DNA of 64,000 nucleotides from an uncultured bacterium (lineage in GTDB: Bacteria > Cyanobacteriota > Vampirovibrionia > Gastranaerophilales > Gastranaerophilaceae), in NCBI GenBank assembly GCA_950022695.1, contig CATLLN010000005.1, positions 62,001-126,000 of the forward strand, in the 5' to 3' direction. Below the pieces are notes generated by a model that was given only the letters and a program-made list of their open reading frames with translations, ran no database searches and was not told the DNA's origin. Shown here one piece after another: positions 3,453 to 44,575 of the stretch (its first letter is position 1; each line of letters starts with the position of its first letter). Made by a program: the position numbers and the translations under genes.

Positions 3453-4270
3453 ATGAAACTCTTACGCGATTTACAAAAACAGGGGGGGACTTATTGAAGC
3501 CTATTTTACAGTGTTTTTCGGGGTCGTTTCTAGCAGCATCAAAAAATAAATCTATACTTGCAACTACTACAGTATTTTCAAATTCTTCATCATTTTTTAA
3601 TAAAGCAGGTTTTACTTTAGCGGAGGTATTAATTACTCTTGGCGTTATTGGTATTGTCGCAGCCATGACTATTCCAACATTAATGACCAAAATTCAAAAT
3701 CGTCAGTATGGTACAGCTTATAAAAAGGCTTTATCTACATTGAACCAGGCATTAAGAAGCGCAAATGATGATGGCGCTCTGGTTAGTATGAAAGATGGTG
3801 GCGAAGTTGATACAGGTCATAATACCGGTCTAGGATTGACTGGAAAGAATTTTGTTGCTATTACAAAATATATGACAGGTGTTACGTCATGTTTTGATGG
3901 TGATAATACTGCTTGTTGGGAATGTAATGGGCAAGCAGGTAAAATCGTTGACAATTATATGGGATGCAATAAACAGTCTTATGCTTTTATTGATGCTTCC
4001 GGTACTCAATATTATCTTTATAATTCAGATGAATGGCCTATTGTTATTGATGTTAACGGGGTTTCAAAACCAAATGAACTTGGTAGAGATAGATATGTTG
4101 TTTATTTCGCTAATAGTTTCAATTCCGGTTATTATAGTGACGATGTAGATACTATAAAACCTTTACACGATTTGGAAACAAAACAGCGATGGTGTCCTTC
4201 CGGATATTGTCCTTTTACAAGCAGGTTGTTTGGTGACAGTTCTAAGAAAAGTAATCATCCATGGAATTAA
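3453..4270 (+). CDS. Type IV pilin-like protein 1, out of frame through a G7 tract
   Basis: Pseudopilin with the processing motif KAG|FTLAEVLITLG, a hydrophobic N-terminal helix and a 200-residue globular domain ending in a Cys-rich WCPSG.CPFTSRLFG segment shared with pilin 2. Promoter, Shine-Dalgarno and ATG (3453) are excellent, but from this ATG translation reads MKLLRDLQKQGG, then two codons, then TGA at 3495. The pilin frame is -1 relative to it and is open from before the G tract (3482-3488) to 4270. One extra G (G8) would join them and give a 53-residue leader before the cleavage site, very long for a prepilin. Either the gene is phase-OFF or a frameshift is used. Followed by a terminator shared with the convergent HD-GYP gene. 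Confidence 0.8.
3482..3488 (+). repeat. G7 homopolymer tract in pilin 1 leader
   Basis: Seven consecutive G after CAAAAACA, at codons 10-12 of the reading frame starting at 3453. The tract length decides whether the ATG is in frame with the pilin: G7 is out of frame and G8 would be in frame. Runs of this kind are rare in such AT-rich DNA; I found only three of 7 or more in this window, all at pilin genes. Confidence 0.85.
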
Positions 4271-8612: not shown

Positions 8613-8640
8613 TTGTAATTTCTAAAAAATACTTTATACT
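8613..8640 (+). promoter_or_regulatory. Sigma70-type promoter of pilin 2
   Basis: TTGTAA at 8613-8618, 16-base spacer, TATACT at 8635-8640. The -35 hexamer is identical to that of pilin 1. It is followed by AAAGGAG (8656-8662) and the ATG at 8670. Confidence 0.65.
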
Positions 8641-8669
8641 TAAAATAGACATTTTAAAGGAGAGAAATT

Positions 8670-9496
8670 ATGAAATTAACAAACGAATTGAGAAAGCGGG
8701 GGGGGGTAACCTTAAAAGCCTTAATTTAGGCGCGTTTCAGCTATCTCCTTTCAAACGTAACGTTATTTTTAAAGATTTTGATAAGAGTGGCACTAAAGCA
8801 AACGTAGTTGTGTCGAAAACATTTTCTATGGCTGCTTTTACCTTAGCTGAAGTTCTTATCACTCTCGGCATCATCGGTGTTGTGGCAGCGATGACAATTC
8901 CGACATTGATGACAAAGATTCAAAATCGTCAGTATGCAACAGCTTATAGAAAAGCCTATTCAACTTTAAATCAGGCCTTAAAGTCTGCCAATGAGGATGG
9001 TGTAATAGTTGGACTTAAAGGTGGTGGCTATGTTGATTCCGGACATAATACTGGATTGGGGTTGGTTGGTAAGAATTTTATAGCTTTATCTTCTTATCTG
9101 GCTGGTGTTACTACCTGTTTTAATGGTGACAATAGTGCTTGTTGGGAATGTAGTGGCGAAGCAGGGCGTTCTGATAATAAATGCAATAAATCAAATTCTG
9201 CTTTTATAGATGCTTCAGGTACTCAATATTATTTGTTCAGTAATGATGAATGGCCTATAATTGTTGATGTTAATGGCTTTTCAAAACCAAATGTGCTTGG
9301 TCGCGACAGATATGTTATGTATTTTACAAACAGTTTTAAAAGAGGGTTATACAATAATGATATAGATGCCATTGTTCCTTATATGGATATTGTGACAAAA
9401 CAACGTTGGTGTCCTTCCGGAGATTGTCCTTTTACAAGTAGATTATTTGGGGATAAAACTAAAAAAAGAGATACAGATATTGATGCTAAAAAATAA
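8670..9496 (+). CDS. Type IV pilin-like protein 2, out of frame through a G9 tract
   Basis: Paralogue of pilin 1: FTLAEVLITLGIIGVVAAMTIPTL helix, then a globular domain with DASGTQYY, NDEWPI, NGFSKPN and the Cys-rich WCPSGDCPFTSRLFG end. The well-signalled ATG (8670) reads MKLTNELRKRGGV and stops at TAG 8727-8729. The pilin frame is -1 and stays open upstream through the tract: GNLKSLNLGAFQLSPFKR and onward for about 45 codons before the pilin motif, with no Shine-Dalgarno of its own. A GTG at 8810 is the only obvious later start and lacks a ribosome site. G10 would fuse both parts, giving a 56-residue leader. Ends at a strong terminator. Confidence 0.8.
8698..8706 (+). repeat. G9 homopolymer tract in pilin 2 leader
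   Basis: Nine consecutive G directly after AAGC, at codons 10-13 from the ATG at 8670, followed by TAAC. The flanks (MKLTNELRKR before, G-N-L after) are nearly identical to those at 43862. G9 leaves the pilin out of frame; G10 or G7 would put it in frame. Confidence 0.88.
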
Positions 9497-9524
9497 AAAA
9501 GCGGTTCTTCTGAACCGCTTTTTT
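9495..9524. terminator. Bidirectional terminator between pilin 2 and gltX
   Basis: A-tract, GCGGTTC / GAACCGC stem with a 4-base loop, T-tract. It lies immediately after the pilin stop and before the stop of convergent gltX. Confidence 0.9.
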
Positions 9525-9527
9525 ATG

Positions 9528-43833: not shown

Positions 43834-44575
43834 ATGAAATTAACAAACGAATTAAGAAAGCGGGGGGGGGTAACTGCTTAAAGCTTATTTTAGGCGTTTT
43901 TGAGCAATCTCCTAAAAAAGCATTTACCTTGTCAGAAATATTAATTACCCTTGGTATCATCGGTGTGGTTGCGGCAATAACTATTCCGGGATTGATTACA
44001 AAATGCCGCAAAAATGTTATTGAAACTCAGTTAAAAGAAACTTATTCAATAATGAATCAGGCTTTAAAGCTTGCAGAGTATGATTATGAGGATATGGATG
44101 GCTGGGATTATCCTATAGGTGAAGTTGCTGTTGGTGGAACTTCTGCGTTTGCTTGGTTTCAGAGATATTTGCAGCCGTATTTAAAATCCAGTACCGTTTC
44201 ATCCTCATATCATTTATATTGTGTTTGTATTCGGGTTTTGCAATTGAGTTTATTAATGGTTCCGGGCTTTCTTGCGGAGTAAACAAGGGCGGCGGACCTT
44301 CTTATGGACATTTTGTTTGTATGTTTTATCCGAAAGCAGGTACTATAAAAGATATTAGAGATGATAATAAAAAATCAAAGAAAATAATTTCTGGAAAAGA
44401 TTATTTCGTGTTTGAAATTCAGCATGAATCTCCAACTAAAAAAGGATTCCAGCCATATCCAAGTGATGATTGTAAGCAGACGACGGGATCTATGTATCTT
44501 CCTTCACTTGGATGCACAAAACTAATCCAGAAAAATAACTGGAAAATTCCGTCAAATTATCCTGTGAAAATTTAA
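43834..44575 (+). pseudogene. Type IV pilin-like protein 3, off-frame G9 tract plus internal frameshift
   Basis: Promoter, Shine-Dalgarno and the first 13 codons (MKLTNELRKRGGV) match pilin 2, with TAA at 43876-43878 closing that frame. The pilin body (KKAFTLSEILITLGIIGVV) is again -1 relative to the ATG and open from the G tract to 44282. A second break follows: the C-terminal half (SGFAIEFINGSGLSCGV... to 44575) is in another frame, so a base is missing somewhere around 44190-44235. With G10 and one added base the full protein would be about 247 aa with a 30-residue leader. Likely a decayed or silent member of the same pilin set; sequence error is not excluded. Confidence 0.75.
43862..43870 (+). 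repeat. G9 homopolymer tract in pilin 3 leader
   Basis: Nine G after AAGC and before TAAC, at the same codon position as the tract in pilin 2, in a nearly identical 40-base context starting at the Shine-Dalgarno. Confidence 0.88.

Follow-up and report, generated by a model that had tools for sequence, protein, structure and literature searches.

The type IV pilin gene at positions 8670-9496 of the 64,000-nucleotide stretch analysed here (the window) belongs to a family of pilin genes that, judged from their sequences, are probably phase-variable, parked OFF and one favoured slip away from ON (estimated probability roughly 60%). According to this model, ribosomes would initiate at ATG 8670 and enter a poly-G tract, which at its present length of nine G (G9) would yield a short dead peptide (OFF). 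A slipped-strand replication error adding one G or removing two would bring leader and pilin into one frame (ON). The entire 56-residue leader would subsequently be cut off by prepilin peptidase, so that the mature pilin would be independent of tract length. Throughout the bacterial family, the register would be set such that the commonest slip results in ON, tracts of G8-G10 being one base short (ON by insertion) and tracts of G11-G13 one base long (ON by deletion). Most cells would keep nearly all tract pilins OFF, while a few cells would each display a different one. The switching itself, the cleavage of the leader and the silence of the OFF state are the parts of this model that we infer.

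The locus of this gene, referred to as pilin 2 (window 8613-9526, forward strand), opens with a weak promoter-like element, TTGTAA-16-TATACT (8613-8640), which scored 9/12 in a consensus scan and did not exceed the regional shuffle level. The ribosome-binding-site-like sequence AAAGGAGA (8657-8664) precedes ATG 8670, and the same AGGAG-ATG layout is found at other leaders. From this ATG the 0-frame leader open reading frame MKLTNELRKRGGVTLKALI (8670-8729) runs to TAG 8727-8729. The G9 tract (8698-8706), a simple repeat with 7 or more units, begins 28 bases past the ATG, within the 5' coding region. The following spacer (8707-8836) is open in the pilin frame only and would supply the remainder of the leader. 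The body of the pilin, FTLAEVLITLGIIGVVAAMTIPTL... (8837-9496; 219 residues, stop at 9494-9496), starts with FTLAEVLITL at 8837, one base out of frame relative to the leader ATG, and is followed by a terminator-like hairpin (9493-9526). Its N-terminal F-T-L-x-E methylation motif and hydrophobic helix are the hallmarks of a type IV pilin. Pfam N_methyl scored above cut-off for pilin 1, the first of three tract pilins in the window, and Pfam gave no match for pilin 2 translated from GTG 8810. A first-pass annotation had described the ATG, the G9 tract, the TAG by 8729 and the would-be 56-residue leader as given here, and sequence and translation bear it out. It was equally right that the pilin frame is open across G9; no ATG, GTG or TTG occurs in this frame between the last upstream stop and the tract. 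The spacer, put at about 45 codons, is open as claimed but measures 43. Translation further confirmed that G10 or G7 joins the two frames, the G10 version being a single open reading frame of leader plus pilin.

The same annotation regarded pilin 2 as a repeat of the design of pilin 1, and this holds far beyond the pair, as the leader is common to 19 genes of the host genome (G000, a Ca. Gastranaerophilales (Melainabacteria) MAG of 1.95 Mb in 37 contigs) and to hundreds in relatives. Poly-G pilin leaders are not a product of chance, since the window holds two runs of at least 8 G, both in pilin leaders, against 0.15 matches expected from shuffles. Across the whole host genome, runs of exactly nine G number 22, and neither G8 runs nor runs of ten or more G occur; 18 of the 22 lie in the same leader before a type IV pilin, one in a pilin remnant and three elsewhere. 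Together with pilin 1 (3453-4270, forward strand; ATG 3453, G7 at 3482-3488, pilin motif 3611), which carries G7, these 18 make up the 19 tract pilins. The distance from ATG to tract is 28 bases in 17/18 G9 leaders, 27 in the remaining one (L005) and 29 before G7, and the leader peptides differ. All 19 genes require one additional G, so that all miss the frame in the same direction and none is ON. This includes pilin 1, one base short in the same register, and pilin 3 (43834-44282, forward strand; ATG 43834, G9 at 43862-43870, pilin motif 43923), in which a later frame break shortens the body. Matches to the pilin N-terminus number 69 in the host genome, and about 40 host pilins have no tract; most of the tractless pilins examined in the genus possess an in-frame start of the ordinary kind. 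The leader of pilin 3 (window 43834-44575) is nearly the same as that of pilin 2; its body stops at 119 residues and looks broken, because the rest of the pilin runs on in another frame from about 44250.

We considered whether the pilin instead starts past the tract, at GTG 8810 or ATG 8828 in pilin 2, with the upstream reading frame irrelevant or encoding a regulatory peptide. GTG 8810 would give a leader of ordinary length, MSKTFSMAA; yet neither of these in-frame codons has a good ribosome site. Moreover, the region separating tract and pilin lacks ATG, GTG and TTG altogether in 16/19 host tract genes, and internal initiation therefore cannot account for the family. At nearly all loci, whatever the spacer length, the stretch from tract to motif is open in the pilin frame. 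We thus regard a post-tract start as very unlikely, although the two codons could allow low-level starts without a ribosome site in pilin 2 alone. Long spacers at loci of G003, G007, G053 and G001 (e.g. L135, L194, L102) carry repeated elements, with translations such as HSELDSESIHANK and LIDSDVRQND, that are open in the pilin frame.

Among 241 genomes of the order, 74 carry the leader pattern, all of them in one family and many with tens of copies, while the pattern is almost absent from reversed controls. The modal run differs per genome: 8 in G007 and G053, 9 in G000, G062 and G107, 10 in G199 and G006, 11 in G116 and G003, 12 in G153, and 13 in G009. MutS was found in 19/19 genomes checked and MutL in 17/19, with and without tracts, and we therefore rejected loss of mismatch repair as the cause of the tracts. 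The pilin N-terminus matches 115 places in G007 and 120 in G003, both genomes of less than 2 Mb, and many G003 and some G007 contigs end at leaders.

What is conserved is the register rather than the run length. In the window's genus, G007 and G053 combine G8 with an ATG 29 bases away and G062 combines G9 with 28, so that the shorter tract is offset by the longer spacing and both total and register remain unchanged. Accordingly, about 55 G8 or G9 loci of the genus measure 41 bases from ATG to TAAC, and four measure 42 (in frame). Clean loci in frame, one base long and one base short numbered 0/0/17 in G000, 1/2/21 in G007, 1/0/6 in G053, 0/1/29 in G199 and 3/1/13 in G006, compared to 0/12/1 in G153, 0/12/2 in G116 and 7/17/1 in G009. 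For G062 the count was 1/0/12, beyond which this genome holds three one-base-long and two intact in-frame alleles, and one counted locus was completed. The register is held in genera g1, g7 and g20 and opposite in g9, g10 and g13. In G199, where G10 is fixed, the ATG-to-tract and tract-to-pilin phases vary yet compensate in 29/30 loci. The phase pair 0,1 occurs at eleven loci, 1,0 at twelve and 2,2 at two. Shuffling spacers among loci matched the observed compensation in none of 20,000 trials, which indicates that the register itself is maintained. Several leaders of G165 (L308-L316; genus g29) are equally spaced and carry G9, G10 or G11, all three registers being present; these tracts look freely varying, unlike those of the window's genus.

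An assembly or sequencing artefact, with a true run one G longer, was also considered. Homopolymers are error-prone, and the contigs of some relatives (G102) have N's within the tract. Against this, runs of G7, G8, G9 and G10 all fall one base short, across several separate assemblies of MAGs, and contig names in relatives are of short-read type (NODE, metaWRAP); of all the explanations weighed, an artefact is the hardest to credit.

The side on which the frame is missed varies with tract length. One-base-short loci outnumber one-base-long loci 27 to 0 at G8, 40 to 6 at G9 and 51 to 4 at G10, whereas one-base-long loci outnumber one-base-short loci 17 to 4 at G11, 14 to 1 at G12 and 26 to 0 at G13. 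With the rare G7 and G14 included, the ratio of one short to one long is 119:11 for short and 6:58 for long tracts, counts that are not independent because they span only about eight clades, roughly four against four at clade level. For poly-G tracts of Campylobacter jejuni, a length-dependent insertion/deletion bias with a crossover at G9/G10 has been measured (PMC8224891), and by analogy our register-by-length pattern matches the direction of these biases. The proposal of a length switch, as put forward by the first-pass annotation, stands in part. The tract is indeed poly-G and lies ahead of the point at which a surface pilin would be cleaved, and alleles in and out of frame do occur at the same locus between sister species; a conserved register, on the other hand, is not expected under free toggling. 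It implies either an OFF state kept at a single slip's distance from ON, or an out-of-frame allele that is expressed in its own right through slippage.

The second possibility would make the G9 allele a working gene, in which a ribosomal -1 shift at G_GGG_GGG, or RNA polymerase adding a G, lets each copy make full pilin steadily at a low level. Conservation that falls on register and not on tract length fits such recoding, as do out-of-frame bodies under purifying selection. The heptamer is in phase at 126/126 one-base-short loci, the minimal G7 of pilin 1 included; however, it is also in phase at all in-frame and one-base-long loci and therefore does not discriminate. Among the tRNA genes read, those for tRNA-Gly were UCC and GCC only, with no CCC, so GGG would be wobble-read. 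On the other side, no RNA structure was detected past the tract (mean z about 0 over the next 65 bases in most genomes). In E. coli, G_GG.G_GG.U without a stimulator shifted at 0.018%, the lowest value (PMC4066793), and in transcription data runs of G or C showed no tendency to slip (PMC5574713). In addition, long-tract genera keep the opposite register, and in-frame alleles exist. Recoding had been our leading explanation once the register proved conserved, and was demoted by the structure result, the E. coli measurements and the opposite register of long tracts; we now consider it a tentative alternative, with perhaps one chance in four. Equally doubtful is its extension to the entire family, in which hundreds of pilins would be expressed only through poly-G slippage of the ribosome or RNA polymerase, by -1 in short-tract genera and by +1 or -2 in long-tract genera. 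A ribosome site pairing with TCTCCT or GCTCCT 3' of the tract showed weak enrichment only and no clear energy signal, and was dropped. The G7 of pilin 1 is exactly G_GGG_GGG in phase, and 7 G is at the minimum length for tract-based phase variation.

Despite their out-of-frame position, the pilin bodies of one-base-short loci appear from sequence comparison to be under purifying selection, with dN/dS of 0.11-0.37 (few pairs, simple method). Alleles in both states were found at one syntenic locus between sister species, G10 and in frame in G062 (L452), G9 and out of frame in G000 (L023); L451 and L455 are further intact in-frame alleles. Such intact in-frame pilins in G062 contradict the idea, which we had entertained, that the three in-frame alleles of the genus are degenerate genes. 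Two loci of G007, within one MAG, are identical in all 70 flanking bases and carry G8 and G9, respectively, the tract length having changed with the flanks intact. Both length and register are unchanged in five of eight syntenic pairs; register differs in the other three. L458 of G062, the orthologue syntenic with pilin 2, is also G9 in the identical register, and the same gltX-side sequence follows (80% identity). Three G007 copies (L140 ~18001, L135 ~825, L144 ~9025) have tracts broken by a point change and are still out of frame with long pilin reading frames; they may be newly locked OFF. A forced repair of the frame upon tract loss was set aside; these three stay out of frame with intact pilins, which supports neither side.

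Slippage is rare in G7 and G8 tracts of other bacteria. The G7 of pilin 1, the G8 tracts, the absence of ON alleles from the host genome (0/19) and the uniform direction of the miss there weigh against a switch. When slippage was modelled with Campylobacter rates, broad length distributions with 25-43% ON were obtained, and a costly ON state led to collapse to the shortest runs. Under this model, plain slippage yields a wider spread than the single length seen per genome. The latter needs either selection for the position of one favoured slip from ON, lower mutation rates, or a functional out-of-frame allele. As MutS is present in all and MutL in most genomes checked, the tracts may be stabler than those of Campylobacter.

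In Neisseria, silent pilin copies recombine into expressed pilin genes. Out-of-frame copies might likewise form an archive of donors, a proposal for which the many paralogues sharing leaders, the identical leaders at separate loci and the contig breaks at leaders may be cited. It is nevertheless unlikely, since every copy comes with a ribosome site and an ATG of its own and pilin 2 is followed by its own terminator-like hairpin, since syntenic orthologues persist, and since silence would not call for a conserved register.

Our literature searches turned up no account of poly-G pilins or of phase variation in this group. Among known systems, a direct precedent for the tract pilins is given by bbr_0113 and bbr_1889 of Bifidobacterium breve UCC2003, a gut commensal whose pilus genes have tracts in the coding region (G10-G12), out of frame in most cells, and are mostly OFF and a single G from ON (PMC9187656). 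Those pili are sortase-assembled, confined to two loci and turned ON by deletion. Here, in contrast, type IV pilins occupy 19 loci per genome, the tract lies in the leader before the cleavage site, the register is conserved across genera and ON would be reached by insertion in the window's genus. The contingency genes of C. jejuni (PMC4965091, PMC8224891) likewise have many G7-G13 tracts in surface-related reading frames, but with lengths and ON/OFF states mixed across loci and mostly enzymes as targets, whereas here one length and register per genome dominate and MutS is present. Genes using programmed frameshifting or transcriptional slippage (IS elements, dnaX; PMC1088944, PMC4066793) share a conserved run and register between two frames; they differ in relying mainly on A/T runs or stimulated heptamers, while poly-G slips poorly in E. 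coli and the present loci yielded no stimulator.

If the pilins do switch, uncultured gut relatives of cyanobacteria hold one of the larger switchable pilus sets known, all a single slip short of ON, and the side on which they are parked agrees with the direction favoured by poly-G mutation. Selection tuning the readiness of contingency genes, and not just their presence, would then become testable from sequence alone. If recoding is correct, the family would be unusually large for one dependent on it, and would comprise non-mobile cellular genes with a motif thought to be non-slipping. In MAGs, the tract pilins are likely mis-annotated as truncated or wrongly started pilins.

Some further loci deserve mention. 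L079 (~801; G000:C5:128300) is a decayed leader and pilin start that has no ATG of its own and lies just behind another gene. At L029 (1501-1509; G000:C4:30535), G9 occurs near the 3' end of a reading frame, just upstream of a CMP-sugar (sialic acid type) synthetase-like gene, and is possibly another length switch, acting on surface sugar synthesis. Finally, L017 and L025 (~1500) contain in-frame C9 runs on the coding strand of two unrelated reading frames (VTPPR, ATPPR), which could serve as controls for tract stability.
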